Source: Candidatus Zymogenaceae bacterium (GTDB lineage Bacteria > Desulfobacterota > Zymogenia > Zymogenales > Zymogenaceae). Taken from it: DNA of 64,000 nucleotides. The notes beneath the pieces were generated by a model, which was not told the DNA's origin, searched no databases, and was given only the letters and a program-made list of their open reading frames with translations. The stretch covers positions 62,001 to 126,000 of the forward strand of contig JAFGFE010000020.1 of assembly GCA_016931225.1 (NCBI GenBank). The letters are read 5' to 3'. The position numbers were made by a program, and so were the translations under genes. Positions 10,485 through 37,867 of this stretch are shown piece by piece (the stretch's first letter is position 1; each line of letters begins with the position of its first letter).

Positions 10485-10590
10485 GTGATTTTATCCATTT
10501 AAATTGACAACATATTACCACAATCAAATATAACATATAACATACGAACATACTATTGGATAAAGATCATTCCTACTAATTACAAATAAC

Positions 10591-10835
10591 AGCTCCTTCA
10601 TACACTCTTCCACATATCCCATATACCCATGCTTTTTCCAGAAGCGCTATGATACCGGATTGGTGACGGCCACCCGGCATTCAATCCGATCGGCGTCGCT
10701 TTTTGAAAAACCACCGCTCAGCCTCGTGTAAAGGCTCCGTCCCCAGACCCATGTTCCGGTGCCTCCCCGTCACGCGGATTCCCTCGACGACGCCCCGCCT
10801 CTTTCCCGAGTGCACCGGCGGTGGGGAGACGACCG
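10591..10835 (-). pseudogene. Decayed GNAT acetyltransferase (copy of 12972-13475)
   Basis: The minus strand here matches the C-terminal half (about 80 residues) of the intact GNAT gene at 12972-13475; GLGTE, EAERWFFK, RFWKKHGY and the C-terminal KEL are recognisable. Two lesions are visible. An extra base after the AERWFFK codons shifts the frame, and a Gln codon before RFWKKHGY has become TAG. The N-terminal half is missing. The rest of the 495-bp gap 10485-10979 shows nothing but AT-rich sequence and the terminator at 10909-10932. Confidence 0.85.
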
Positions 10836-11557: not shown

Positions 11558-11581
11558 GAAGCCGCCATAAACGGCGGCTTC
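11558..11581 (-). terminator. Strong intrinsic terminator for the gasdermin-like gene
   Basis: GAAGCCGCC (11558-11566) pairs with GGCGGCTTC (11573-11581) around a 6-nt loop. On the minus strand the stem is followed by eight T's (plus-strand A's at 11550-11557). Confidence 0.88.
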
Positions 11582-11723: not shown

Positions 11724-12536
11724 CTAATCCGAAATATCCAGCAATTCTCCCGGTTGTATAAGAGGAGGCGAAAAAATATTCTGTGCGTCTTTTTCTTCCA
11801 TTGAAAACATTGCTTTCGTACCCACTCCCGGCGGCTTCCCGGGTATCATCATCTCAAACGATTGACTCTCCGGCGATACCCACATCATCATTACCATTAT
11901 CGCGAAATTGAAATATTTTTTGCCTTTAAACGACACGGTATAATCCTCGGTTTTTTTGACGGTGATACCCGGTTGAACCGAGATAATATCTTGAAGATTC
12001 GCCACATCGATATCAAGGTTGCATTCGTTTTTATCCTTTGACGTAATTGAGAATGAATTGGACTTGAGGACCTCAAGTACAATGTACGCCTCTTTCTTCT
12101 CATCAAAATGTCCGATTAGCTTATTTTTCATATCCGGTACGGAATTACCAAGATACTTCGCTATCGCTAGAGGCTCCGAAGAATCCAGAAGAACATTCTT
12201 GTATTCGAAGGTAAACGATTTTGCGTTTTTGAATAATCCCTTCACACCCACACCGGGAACGCCGATCGCGGATAGAAGATTATCAAGCGCCGAAACCCCT
12301 AATGAAAAATTGAATTTTGCGGTCAAATGCCCTGAAATTTTCGGCGTCTCCCGGTCTCTTTCAATCTTCGGCTTCTTTTCTGAGGTATCGGCAATAATAT
12401 ACGAGACGGAGCCCAGGCGCGCGAGCTTCTTTTTCGCCCTATAGAGCACGTCCATCGGCTCAAATTCTCTATACGGATACGAAACCGGATTATATCCCAA
12501 GTCATTCAAAAATTTAATCGCCGGCTTATCCAACAT
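11724..12536 (-). CDS. Gasdermin-like protein (candidate bacterial gasdermin)
   Basis: This 270-residue protein has no signal peptide. Its N-terminus (LNDLGYNPVSYPYREFEPMDVL), the following ISGHLTAKFNF-SLGVSALDNLLSAIG segment, and the strand-rich middle with FTFEYKNVLLD resemble, from memory, the opening and core of bacterial gasdermins. These are about 250-280 residues long and are pore formers released when a protease removes a short C-terminal inhibitor. The last 40 residues are polar and Pro/Gly-rich, as expected of such a tail. Odd points: no Cys near the N-terminus (known bacterial gasdermins carry one that is palmitoylated) and no linked protease. GGGAGG precedes ATG 12536; G+C is lower than the flanks. 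Homology is a judgement by eye; an unrelated beta-rich protein remains possible. Confidence 0.6.
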   Translation of the reverse strand: MLDKPAIKFLNDLGYNPVSYPYREFEPMDVLYRAKKKLARLGSVSYIIADTSEKKPKIERDRETPKISGHLTAKFNFSLGVSALDNLLSAIGVPGVGVKGLFKNAKSFTFEYKNVLLDSSEPLAIAKYLGNSVPDMKNKLIGHFDEKKEAYIVLEVLKSNSFSITSKDKNECNLDIDVANLQDIISVQPGITVKKTEDYTVSFKGKKYFNFAIMVMMMWVSPESQSFEMMIPGKPPGVGTKAMFSMEEKDAQNIFSPPLIQPGELLDISD

Positions 12537-12754
12537 GGGAGCCTCCCTTTCATTTTTTTAAGCGATACATATATCCCCAGCCGTCCACGTTCTTTGCACG
12601 TTACGAACCACGTTAATTGATCTTCTCGGGCCGGGACTTCACAAGATGGGAACGAGGGGGTTCCCTGTCGAGACGGGAGGTGTGAAACTCAATATGAAAA
12701 ACAGATGAGACCGTGTGGACGTGCCGCGCTACCAATCAGCTCGTGCTTGCCTGC

Positions 12755-12784
12755 ATATTACCAAACGTAAATTATACATGTCAA
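12755..12784 (-). promoter_or_regulatory. Candidate promoter for the gasdermin-like gene
   Basis: Read on the minus strand, TTGACA (12779-12784), an 18-bp spacer and TAATAT (12755-12760). It would give an untranslated leader of about 210 nt. The remainder of the 435-bp gap 12537-12971 shows no gene and no clear hairpin. Confidence 0.5.
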
Positions 12785-12971
12785 CCGATTTTTCGTCCTA
12801 TTTCTTCTTACTTCAAATACGACGCGTATTCTTTTTTTCTGAAATCCGTACGGTGCTCAATGATACGGGGGGTGTGGTAGGGTTTTTAGTGGTTTGAAAA
12901 AGATATATCAATCCCTCATTTTAGGAAACGACATCAGAGAAACCAAACAGGGTTGACGGAAGCGAGAGAAC

Positions 12972-13475
12972 TCACAGCTCCTTTATACACACTTTGATGT
13001 ATCCGGCATACCCGTGCTTTTTCCAGAAGCGCTGTGACACCGGGTTGGTGACGGCCACCCGGCATTCAATCCGCTCGGCGTCGTTCTTGAAGAACCACCG
13101 CTCCGCCTCATATAGCAGCTCCGTTCCCAGGCCCATGTTCTGGTGCATCTCCGACACGCAGATTTCATTGACGACGCCCCATTTCCGGCCCGGATATACC
13201 GGCGGGGGGGAGATGATCTCCCCGAAAATGTATCCCACAATCTCGCAGTCCTCTTCGGCCACCAGCGTCAGCTTCGCCCCGTTTGCGATGCAGTCCGCGG
13301 CGTACGGCCCATACACATCCGCGGCGTCCTCCCGGAGGGTGAAAACCGTGTTTTGCTCGACGTGAAACGCCATCATCTCCTGCCACAGGTACACGACGGC
13401 GTCAAGATCGTCCGCTTCGGCGGGGCGTATATGAACGCCCGCGCGAATTCCATTCAGGTTCTTCGGTACTCTCAT
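12972..13475 (-). CDS. GNAT family N-acetyltransferase
   Basis: This 167-residue GNAT protein has VHIRPAEADD at the start, the CoA loop HQNMGLG, and EAERWFFKNDAERIECRV with NPVSQRFWKKHGY at the end, the usual motif A and B order. The frame extends to 13556, but AGGA precedes ATG 13475, where the conserved domain begins shortly after. The acceptor is unknown. A frameshifted, truncated copy of its C-terminal half lies at 10591-10835 in the same orientation, so this gene or the intervening segment was once duplicated. Confidence 0.9.
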   Translation of the reverse strand: MRVPKNLNGIRAGVHIRPAEADDLDAVVYLWQEMMAFHVEQNTVFTLREDAADVYGPYAADCIANGAKLTLVAEEDCEIVGYIFGEIISPPPVYPGRKWGVVNEICVSEMHQNMGLGTELLYEAERWFFKNDAERIECRVAVTNPVSQRFWKKHGYAGYIKVCIKEL

Positions 13476-18125: not shown

Positions 18126-19022
18126 ATGCCCGCCCCGAAACAAAAGGCAACGTTTTTTCTCCTCATCACCTTCGGTGTATCCTGGCTGATCGCCCTTGTA
18201 TATTACCTGGCGGACGGGCGATGGAACACGCCGCTCTCCGTGGTCGTCGGGGCCGTCTTCATGCTCGTTCCCATGCTGTCGGCGCTGTTCGTCCAGAAGG
18301 TACTCTATCGTCAGGCGGTCGTCGAGCCCCTGGGTATTTCCTTTCGCATAAACGTCTGGTTTTTAACAGCCTGGCTTCTGCCGGCGCTGCTGGTGTTCTG
18401 TGCCATCCCCGTGGCCATGCTGCTTCCGGGGGTGTCCTTTTCGCCGGAGCACGAGGGGCTATTCCGCCGCATGGCCGCCACCCTCTCCCCACAGCAGATC
18501 GAAGCCATGCGGGAAAGCTACGCAAACATGCGAATCAATCCCGCCCTGATGTCCCTTGTCCAGGGGCTCATTGCCGGGGCCACGATCAATGCCCTTCTCG
18601 CCTTCGGAGAAGAGCTGGGATGGCGGGGACTCTTGCAGCGGGAGTGGGAGCATCTCGGCGTGTTTACCGGCTCGGCACTGATCGGGCTGGTATGGGGCGT
18701 GTGGCATGCGCCCCTAATTGTGATGGGGCACAACTTCCCCGATCACCCGGCGGCGGGGATCTTTCAGATGATCGCGGCGACCATGCTTCTCGGTATACTC
18801 ATCAGCTATATCCGTCTCCGGGCGAAATCGGTCATCCCTGCGGCCCTGATGCACGGCTCAACCAACGGCCTGTACGGGGTGTCGCTGATGTACCTCGACT
18901 GGGACAACGACCTCTCCATCGGCCTGTTCGGCACCGGGGGATGCCTGGTGATGGGAGGCTGTGTCATCCTCCTGTTTTTCTATGACCGCTTCCTCTCCAA
19001 ACAACCGCTGTTTGAAAAGTGA
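18126..19022 (+). CDS. CPBP family intramembrane metalloprotease
   Basis: This 298-residue, multi-spanning membrane protein has the CPBP/Rce1 motifs: FGEELGWRGLL (EExxxR), WGVWHAP (first His) and LMHGSTNGLYG (later His-Asn), which together form the zinc-type active site. Family members process CAAX proteins in eukaryotes and act in bacteriocin immunity or unknown proteolysis in bacteria. It begins 33 bp after the acyl-CoA synthetase and is probably co-transcribed. It ends 20 bp from a convergent gene. The target is unknown. Confidence 0.92.
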   Translation: MPAPKQKATFFLLITFGVSWLIALVYYLADGRWNTPLSVVVGAVFMLVPMLSALFVQKVLYRQAVVEPLGISFRINVWFLTAWLLPALLVFCAIPVAMLLPGVSFSPEHEGLFRRMAATLSPQQIEAMRESYANMRINPALMSLVQGLIAGATINALLAFGEELGWRGLLQREWEHLGVFTGSALIGLVWGVWHAPLIVMGHNFPDHPAAGIFQMIAATMLLGILISYIRLRAKSVIPAALMHGSTNGLYGVSLMYLDWDNDLSIGLFGTGGCLVMGGCVILLFFYDRFLSKQPLFEK

Positions 19023-34818: not shown

Positions 34819-36111
34819 TCAATCCCCATCGATTATTTCACAATCCCTCACGGACGGGCCCACATCCCCCTCACCCCCCTTATCTTTCGCCTTTTTCGCC
34901 TCGGTCTCACACCCCAATTCCAAAAGCGCCGCCGGCAGGTGCCCGCTCTCCGCCAGGAACCGGGCCCGGCTCAGCACATAATCCGGGTCCTCCCGGTCCA
35001 GAGAGGGAAATTCCACCGTCACCTCGAAGGCGTCTGTGCCGTATTTGATGAGGAGATATTTTTCCATCAGCTCTTCGAATCCCCGACCGAGATACACCAG
35101 CTTCGTCTCGGTATAACGCTTGAGGCTCTCCAGCATGGCGTTGAGGGCCTTGGCCGAGGTGGCGGCCCTGGCCATGTCGTCTTTCAGGCGGCGGGGCACC
35201 GACCCCAGCCGATAGAGGTGGTCCAGGGCGTCGTCCACCTCCCGCTCCACCGAGGTCAGGTCCACGTCTCCGCCCACCGCCTCGATGGGGATGGGGGAGA
35301 GGGACCCTGGGGAGACCCGGATGGTCGTGCCCTGCTCTATAAAACCCGCCTCCTTCGGCGCCCAGACCCGAAACGAATTGTACTTGGTGGCCCAGGCCCT
35401 CTTCGTCAGGGCCATGTTGACGTTCTGCTGGGCCTCGATGAGATCGGCGATGCCGGACTTCCCGTACGGGGAACCCTCCACCTCCTCCCGGATGATCTTC
35501 ACCACCGGGATGAAACCGAAATTGTGGGCGTCATCACTGATGAGCTTCCCGTCGGCATACCGCCGATACCCCAAGCCGTCGATCTCCTCCCGCATCGCGA
35601 CCGTCCTTTCGCCGCCTTCCTCCAGGTCGTGGGTCTCCTCCCAGGAAAACACATATCGCTTCACATCCAGGTAATTCCGCTCGTCGGTCACCACCTCCAC
35701 GTCCCGGGTCTCCATCTTCTGGACCGATATTCGCCCATTCCTGACGAAGAGCTTCAGAAAGAGCGTGCCGTAGTTTTCGTGGGTCCTGAGATAGCCGGGC
35801 AGTGCCTCCCAGAAACTGCGGCCGCCGCCGAAATTCCGGGAGCGAAGCCACCGACGCACCTCACCGGTTAAGCCTGTGTGGATTTCACCGGTATCCGAAC
35901 GCGCCGCCGACACGTCAAACCGGGACGGCGTGAAGTTGATACGGACATCCTGGATGACCCGGATGTCGTTTTGAAAGTAAAAATCGATGATGGAAAACCG
36001 ATCGTCCCTGGGGATATCGCTCGACACCCGCCGGGCCGTAAAATGGCCGAAGATTCCCTCCTTGTTCCCGTTATAGAAGTCAAGATATCTTTTTATGTCA
36101 TCCCGATTCAT
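34819..36111 (-). CDS. Phage portal protein (SPP1 gp6-like)
   Basis: This 430-residue protein resembles SPP1-type portals: a long N-terminal region with DFYNGNKEGIFG, then GKSGIADLIEAQQNVNMALTKR, a helix typical of portal stems, and MARAATSAKALNAMLESLKR. Family function: a dodecameric DNA gate at one vertex of the procapsid that docks the terminase. ATG 36111 follows a G-rich site; an earlier ATG 36129 lacks one. It is the last gene of the cassette; no protease, scaffold or capsid gene follows, only the terminator of the convergent pirin gene 190 bp on. Confidence 0.82.
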   Translation of the reverse strand: MNRDDIKRYLDFYNGNKEGIFGHFTARRVSSDIPRDDRFSIIDFYFQNDIRVIQDVRINFTPSRFDVSAARSDTGEIHTGLTGEVRRWLRSRNFGGGRSFWEALPGYLRTHENYGTLFLKLFVRNGRISVQKMETRDVEVVTDERNYLDVKRYVFSWEETHDLEEGGERTVAMREEIDGLGYRRYADGKLISDDAHNFGFIPVVKIIREEVEGSPYGKSGIADLIEAQQNVNMALTKRAWATKYNSFRVWAPKEAGFIEQGTTIRVSPGSLSPIPIEAVGGDVDLTSVEREVDDALDHLYRLGSVPRRLKDDMARAATSAKALNAMLESLKRYTETKLVYLGRGFEELMEKYLLIKYGTDAFEVTVEFPSLDREDPDYVLSRARFLAESGHLPAALLELGCETEAKKAKDKGGEGDVGPSVRDCEIIDGD

Positions 36112-36143
36112 CTGCCCCCCCATCCACATGAAAAAAGTTTCGA

Positions 36144-36347
36144 TTACAACGACACATCCTTGCCAAAGTCCTTCTGATAGACCCGATGCTCCTTACCCAG
36201 CTGCAGCCAGCGGAGCTCCCGCCCCGGAAGGACCACCCGCCGTCCGCCCTTCCTCTTGATGATCACATACTCCCCGCGGCAGGCGACTCTCTTCACCATG
36301 GAATAGGTCCGCATCTCTCCGTCGGTGAACTTTGCCTTTGCCAGCAT
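36144..36347 (-). CDS. Small basic protein of the packaging cassette
   Basis: This 67-residue basic protein has a likely small beta fold (KRVACRGEYVIIKRKGG, VVLPGRELRWLQL). It lies between the large terminase and portal genes. The frame is open to 36395, overlapping the terminase end, but GGGAG is well placed before ATG 36347. I do not recognise a family; it might be a head-closure or nucleic-acid-binding accessory. Short spacing to both neighbours suggests one transcript. Confidence 0.6.
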   Translation of the reverse strand: MLAKAKFTDGEMRTYSMVKRVACRGEYVIIKRKGGRRVVLPGRELRWLQLGKEHRVYQKDFGKDVSL

Positions 36348-36375
36348 ACTCGATCTCCCTTCGTCTAATTCGTTC

Positions 36376-37596
36376 TCAGAATCCGATATGTTCAAAATCC
36401 GCCCCGGAAATCCGCCCGCCCCGCATCCCCCACCACGCGAGTCCCAGGGCGATCACGCAGTCATCATGGCCGCCGGGGGGCGCCCCATAGCGCACACCCC
36501 CGCCTGTGGTAATGCTTCCCTCAAAAAGCATGAGCTCATCGATCAATTCCGGGATCGGCGCGAGCGTGATGTGTCCCCCCTCCAGACCCAGCGCCAGGTG
36601 CTCGATGATCGCCTCCTTGTTCCTGGCCGAAAAGGTAACCCCCCTCACGGTCAGGTCCATTCTCCTCAGATCCTCGAAGATCGGGTCGCCGACGCCGGTG
36701 GAGTCCATCCACACGATCGCGTTGTGATATTTTTTCACCGCCCCCGCCACCCGGCTCTTCATCACGCCCCAGCTCGTCCTCCTGAAGCGATCAAAATAGA
36801 CGAGGGCTCCCTCATCGTCCAATATCACCAGCACCGTGTAATCCTGCAGGCGGGCCACATCCAGACCGCCGATGTATCTTCTCCCGGGTGATGGATCGGC
36901 GAGATTGGCCCGCACGGCGTCATGCACGTGTGAAAACACCCCGGCGCCGTCTTCCACAAACCGAGCCTGGTATTCCTGGCGAAACACCCGGTCGGGAAGC
37001 GTCCTCTGGGCTTCTTCGATCTCGTCTTTCGAGATGTTCGGGTTGCTCTCGGTGGGAAAACAAAACGACGCCCAGTTTTCTTCTTTGTTGTCCCGCCCCC
37101 GGGCGAAAAGGCCGTAAAACCAGTTTTTGCCCTTGGGAGTTCCCACCAACAGCGCCCTTCCGTGCCGATCGGCCAAAGTGGGACGCAGCACCTCCTCCCA
37201 GAGCCCTCGGGGAAGAAAGGCGGTCTCATCCACGACCAGGAAATCTACGCCGAAACCCCTCAATGTGTCGGCGAGATGTGCGCTCCTGAACTCGATAATC
37301 GAGCCGTTCGCCAGGACGATCCGGCGATTTTCCCTACTGATTGTCTTCACAACGTCACCGGAGAGACCGTTCCTCACCAAGTCGAACGCGATGGAACTCT
37401 GCCGATACACCGGCGCCACCCAGAAGGAAAGTGACCCCGGCTCCTCCCAGGCGTGTTTAACAATCTCCGCGGTGGAGGCGACGGTTTTGCCCCAGCGTCT
37501 GCCGCAGGCCGCCACCCGAAACCGCGCCCGGGACGCATGAAGCACCTGCTGGCCCGGATGGGGCTTATATATCTTCAGGATCCTTCGTTGTATCAT
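36376..37596 (-). CDS. terL: Phage terminase large subunit
   Basis: This 406-residue protein has the ATPase parts ACGRRWGKT (Walker A variant, about residues 28-36) and FLVVDETAFL (Walker B with catalytic Glu). They are followed by GTPKGKNWFY (motif III) and a C-terminal RNase H-like nuclease region with GGLDVAR, WMDSTGVGD and GGHDD (acidic metal ligands). All catalytic blocks look intact. Start: ATG 37596; a TTG at 37620 is an alternative. It overlaps the small gene upstream, so translation may be coupled. Motor and headful or site-specific cutter in phage packaging. Confidence 0.9.
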   Translation of the reverse strand: MIQRRILKIYKPHPGQQVLHASRARFRVAACGRRWGKTVASTAEIVKHAWEEPGSLSFWVAPVYRQSSIAFDLVRNGLSGDVVKTISRENRRIVLANGSIIEFRSAHLADTLRGFGVDFLVVDETAFLPRGLWEEVLRPTLADRHGRALLVGTPKGKNWFYGLFARGRDNKEENWASFCFPTESNPNISKDEIEEAQRTLPDRVFRQEYQARFVEDGAGVFSHVHDAVRANLADPSPGRRYIGGLDVARLQDYTVLVILDDEGALVYFDRFRRTSWGVMKSRVAGAVKKYHNAIVWMDSTGVGDPIFEDLRRMDLTVRGVTFSARNKEAIIEHLALGLEGGHITLAPIPELIDELMLFEGSITTGGGVRYGAPPGGHDDCVIALGLAWWGMRGGRISGADFEHIGF

Positions 37597-37867
37597 CGAC
37601 GAATCGTGCCTCGTACACAATCTCTGTCAAATCTTCATCTCCATCGGAGGCATTGAAATGCTGTCTGTATTTCAAAAACAACTCCTGGTGCTTCACGCTC
37701 CCTCCCTTCGCCTCCCGAATGATGGCATCGAGCACATCCCGGGTCCAATCAGTACCACCCTTTTTGTGTGTCGGGGATGTCTGTTTCCCTGTATGTTTCG
37801 ATTTGGAGGGGAGATCATGTTCCCCGCCGGTGTGCGTATTCTTTTTATCAGTGGACCGGATCGTCAT
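37565..37867 (-). CDS. Small cassette protein, possible terminase small subunit
   Basis: This 100-residue protein has a Lys/Thr-rich, likely disordered first 40 residues and a helical second half (TRDVLDAIIREAKGGSVKHQELFLKYRQHF). Position directly before the large terminase, with a 32-bp overlap, is where phages encode the DNA-recognition subunit. No diagnostic motif, so the role rests on position. Its ATG overlaps the end of the HTH gene upstream by 20 bp. Confidence 0.6.
   Translation of the reverse strand: MTIRSTDKKNTHTGGEHDLPSKSKHTGKQTSPTHKKGGTDWTRDVLDAIIREAKGGSVKHQELFLKYRQHFNASDGDEDLTEIVYEARFVDDTTKDPEDI

Follow-up and report, generated by a model that had tools for sequence, protein, structure and literature searches.

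Does a lone gene of a Candidatus Zymogenaceae bacterium encode a bacterial gasdermin, and how could such a protein act with neither the N-terminal cysteine nor the neighbouring protease that its relatives carry? Relatives of such proteins punch death pores in human cells. A first-pass annotation of the locus proposed by eye that the gene belongs to this family. The window, the whole 64,000-nucleotide stretch of contig JAFGFE010000020.1 that was analysed, contains a minus-strand open reading frame of 270 codons with precisely the limits 11724-12536 and an ATG start at 12536, and the sequence motifs quoted for its product are present there (Table 1).

Table 1 Features of the gasdermin locus, in window coordinates
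Feature	Position	Strand	Basis
Bacterial gasdermin gene, 270 aa	11724..12536	(-)	NCBIfam NF051890, PADLOC bGSDM, PDB 7n51
Leu2 codon, aligned with the lipidated N-terminal Cys	12531..12533	(-)	Alignments with Vitiosangium 7n51, L002, L012, L013, L007
Lys241 codon, inferred candidate cleavage position	11814..11816	(-)	Aligned with Arg/Arg/Lys of relatives
C-terminal peptide PGELLDISD, presumed autoinhibitor	11727..11753	(-)	Matches GELLEV / GQLLEI tails of relatives
Shine-Dalgarno GGGAGG	12542..12547	(-)	Read from sequence
Presumed untranslated leader, ~210 nt	12537..12748	(-)	No family, no unusual folding
Promoter-like site TTGACA-18-TAATAT	12755..12784	(-)	10/12 matches
Intrinsic terminator of the gasdermin gene	11558..11581	(-)	10-bp GC-rich stem + T8 tail

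Judged by sequence comparison, the open reading frame encodes a genuine bacterial gasdermin. The protein matches the NCBIfam equivalog model NF051890 (prok_gasdermin) from end to end (model positions 1-203 of 203) at 170 bits, where the cut-off is 100 bits, and scores 198.7 bits against the PADLOC bGSDM profile. Its best matches in the PDB are the Vitiosangium entries 7n51 and 8sl0 (E ~5e-30, 28% identity), and a profile of five relatives also finds Bradyrhizobium 7n50 (E 1e-9) and Runella 7n52 (E 9e-5), placing both in the same family as the window protein. This comparison with solved gasdermins had been proposed with the original call, and together with the curated equivalog and the defence-system profile it bears the call out. 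A structure predicted from an input of only three sequences was poor (pLDDT 47.3, pTM 0.47); a Foldseek search of the PDB with this model returned bacterial gasdermins as its top four matches (best E 2e-6, TM 0.24), which may be taken as weak support. That the protein is something other than a gasdermin is scarcely credible. Such a reading could draw on the Pfam search, in which no match rose above the cut-off and the sole subthreshold hit, at 19.4 bits against a cut-off of 27, fell on the unrelated Cep192_D3 domain. However, NCBIfam, PADLOC, PDB and Foldseek all indicate bacterial gasdermins, mostly with high scores, and the curated equivalog score in practice already refutes it.

The first departure from the usual pattern lies at the N terminus. 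Alignments place a cysteine right after the first residue in the Vitiosangium, three Syntrophobacterales and Gloeothece gasdermins, and 7n52 has one in the aligned place, whereas the window protein has Leu2; its sole cysteine is residue 172. The Bradyrhizobium gasdermin carries a lipidated Cys3 (PMC10989679, PMC9079055) that the window protein likewise lacks. We considered an alternative upstream start that would carry a cysteine and rejected it on the in-frame codons, which read TAA AAA AAT GAA AGG GAG GCT CCC, then ATG. The seven codons between the upstream TAA and the ATG include neither a start codon nor a cysteine codon, so an earlier start cannot supply the residue, and the absence of a cysteine near the start holds as first noted. 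The N-terminal cysteine is a feature of most bacterial gasdermins but not of every one (PMC9079055, PMC12547243, PMC9612521), and palmitoylation, where present, improves pore formation (PMC9612521). It is not a strict requirement for the family.

The second departure is the missing partner. Acetyltransferase (GNAT) and putative esterase genes lie upstream, and genes for a lipoprotein-like and a small membrane protein, neither with a convincing family, lie downstream; the earlier observation that no protease gene adjoins the gasdermin on either side is thus correct. The lipoprotein-like neighbour was considered as a partner, an idea that found no support, as it has no family and the gasdermin terminator stands between the two genes. 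The nearest protease-like gene (18126-19022) is on the opposite strand ~5.6 kb away; it encodes an Rce1-like (CPBP) membrane protein and looks unrelated. No other defence gene adjoins the gasdermin. The CARD-NLR gasdermin defence system (Lysobacter type) is an operon of trypsin-like protease, CARD and NLR-like ATPase genes; no such operon lies beside the window gasdermin, which forms a single-gene transcription unit.

The host assembly (3.73 Mb in 46 contigs, 99% complete, so that ~1% may be missing) encodes one gasdermin and yielded no match to Peptidase_C14, Peptidase_C11 or Peptidase_S8. It encodes two CHAT proteins, both starting with a signal-like hydrophobic segment, by which they look exported. 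One of these (L018:1492-2679) has SADR, with Asp at the catalytic cysteine position by inspection, and is probably not an active protease. Three Trypsin_2 genes are also present, and the one that was read has an N-terminal membrane segment. Among the C14, C11, S8 and CHAT families searched, no cytosolic candidate for an activating protease was found.

Known relatives show what the window gene has kept and what it lacks. The Vitiosangium gasdermin (7n51, 8sl0, 9a84) is 28% identical to it over the pore domain, falls in the same length class and has its motifs in the same order. Within the same phylum, three Syntrophobacterales gasdermins (L002, L012, L013) are ~25% identical to it; all have Cys2 and a Peptidase_C11 (clostripain) gene directly after the gasdermin gene, and the window gasdermin has neither. 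This pairing of Syntrophobacterales gasdermin genes with Peptidase_C11 was noted for L008:10778-12163, L012:8802-10172 and L013:8690-10060, and our literature search for gasdermin with clostripain or Peptidase_C11 found no report of the pairing. A plasmid gasdermin of Gloeothece verrucosa PCC 7822 (L007; 23% identity) is an independent case that, like the window gene, has no adjacent protease in the annotation and open reading frames read; it is followed by a membrane protein gene and, unlike the window protein, has the N-terminal cysteine. Another genome of the phylum encodes a 506-residue protein (L005:1099-2619) that may be a larger, exported relative of gasdermins: its N terminus resembles an export or lipoprotein signal, part of it is gasdermin-like (33.5 bits against PADLOC bGSDM, E 7e-9), and a long additional stretch forms the C-terminal side.

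At the C-terminal end the window protein and its protease-linked relatives share the motif G[EQ]LL[ED][IV], which reads GELLDI in the window protein and GELLEV or GQLLEI at the ends of the relatives, and Lys241, 29 residues from the C-terminal end, aligns in the loop with Arg, Arg and Lys. A length of 270 residues and this conserved motif would fit a short, putatively autoinhibitory C-terminal peptide where other gasdermins have a large domain. Three characterised bacterial gasdermins are activated by removal of the tail (PMC9079055, PMC10989679). In Runella the cut is made by a caspase-like protease encoded next to the gasdermin (PMC9079055). Characterised bacterial gasdermins lose roughly their last 20 residues, the cut falling behind Leu or Arg (PMC9612521), and clostripain, the founder of Peptidase_C11, prefers Arg (PMC11121540). 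Since the window protein shares its tail motif and basic loop residue with protease-linked relatives, it appears to have kept the cut-and-release layout.

On the strength of the kept tail motif and Lys241, we favour a model in which the window protein is an autoinhibited pore-former released in trans by an unlinked protease and able to kill without a palmitoyl anchor, a scenario to which we give an even chance. The gasdermin would be made from its own transcription unit and its pore domain held inactive by the C-terminal peptide. On an alarm signal, plausibly phage infection, a protease whose gene lies at another genomic site would cleave the loop before the peptide, with Lys241 the best candidate site. 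The freed pore domain would then oligomerise in the cell membrane and cause cell death, forming pores without the palmitoyl anchor used by most bacterial gasdermins, and the protein may thereby serve in defence. The absence of any cytosolic activating protease among those found, and of a defence gene beside the gasdermin, counts against this scheme, as does the weakness of the fold model. The first-pass annotation had suggested an orphan or differently activated gasdermin; the conserved tail and the basic residue before it fit conventional cleavage by an unlinked protease just as well.

One such alternative dispenses with the protease altogether. Cleavage-independent activation has been reported for the Trichoplax and RCD-1 gasdermins, ancient eukaryotic members of the family (PMC13305819, PMC12547243), and a trigger of that sort, be it modification, a redox change or a partner protein, would suit a gene with no linked protease in a genome with no cytosolic C14, C11 or S8 enzyme. 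We nevertheless consider it unlikely here, given that the C-terminal motif and the basic loop residue are retained as in protease-linked relatives, the lone Cys172 cannot form an internal disulphide, and the genome has no second gasdermin for heterodimers. Alternatively, the tail could be bait: the protease of an infecting phage would cut it directly, making the gasdermin both sensor and killer, and the solitary gene and missing host protease would then be accounted for. Genes for a phage portal-like protein and a terminase large subunit at 34819-37620 of the window (minus strand, ~22 kb from the gasdermin), perhaps a prophage remnant, show that the lineage meets tailed phages. Our literature search found no such case, however, and we regard direct cutting by a phage enzyme as very improbable. 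A working gasdermin that can do without both lipid anchor and dedicated host protease, whether through a cleavage-free trigger or a phage-protease cut, seems to us unlikely.

The gasdermin gene is monocistronic and has its own terminator, a strong one in which a 10-bp stem (11581-11558) precedes TTTTTTTT. The first-pass annotation had also given it a promoter and a leader of ~210 nt. A promoter-like site is visible, but the region holds no more such sites than chance would give (4 observed versus 2.8 +/- 1.7 in shuffles), and the leader length follows if the site at 12784-12755 is real. We also rejected the idea of an RNA element in this leader, since an Rfam search of it found no family and its folding is ordinary (z = +1.36).

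The distribution of the gene is patchy. A gasdermin scored above the cut-off in 4 of the 395 genomes sampled in the phylum and in none of the three other genomes of its own family, where esterase homologues are present in a different surrounding gene order. A search of genome contigs with the single window protein found no relatives, and one with the alignment found only two loci of the Syntrophobacterales type. Nothing in the viral contigs, phages and plasmids searched was related except the Gloeothece plasmid gene, so a phage-borne origin, which we considered, is unsupported. As first noted, the gene is AT-richer than its surroundings (GC 0.43 versus 0.56 for the region). It also sits between two repeats: the last ~249 nt of the GNAT gene recur as a broken remnant (10584-10832 and 12969-13216), the copies being 77-85% identical and 2384 nt apart with the gasdermin and lipoprotein-like genes between them, and their terminators are 82% alike. 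Low GC, sporadic presence and the broken GNAT copy fit local rearrangement together with horizontal gain, by which the gasdermin was probably acquired; its patchy distribution and reduced GC are in keeping with a mobile defence gene.

The gene could also be a defunct relic that came in, or was left behind, with neither protease nor lipid anchor. In favour of this, it lacks the two customary accessory features, its flanking by an intact acetyltransferase gene and a broken copy of the latter points to local rearrangement, and it keeps the smallest share of the positions invariant in other lineages (21 of 38, or 55%). By the same measure the other lineages keep 21/30 to 21/35 (60-70%), only slightly more and in a small sample, so the window gasdermin is not clearly decaying. 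The open reading frame is intact, the Shine-Dalgarno sequence good, the terminator in place, the composition codon-like and the tail motif kept. Intact frame, good Shine-Dalgarno sequence and terminator count for a working gasdermin, and with the near-normal conserved positions the frame and translation signals argue mildly against decay; we judge a non-working relic quite unlikely.

Both departures, the absent cysteine and the absent linked protease, are exceptions that the literature already allows. Reviews speak of 'most' gasdermins only, and the Gloeothece gasdermin has no adjacent protease, so this is a known family in an unusual combination. What is notable is that combination, in a genome where no cytosolic form of the best-known activator protease families was found. 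The triggering of bacterial gasdermins is understood in systems where a protease lies next door, and the window gasdermin offers a simple natural case for probing the need for lipidation and for a dedicated protease.
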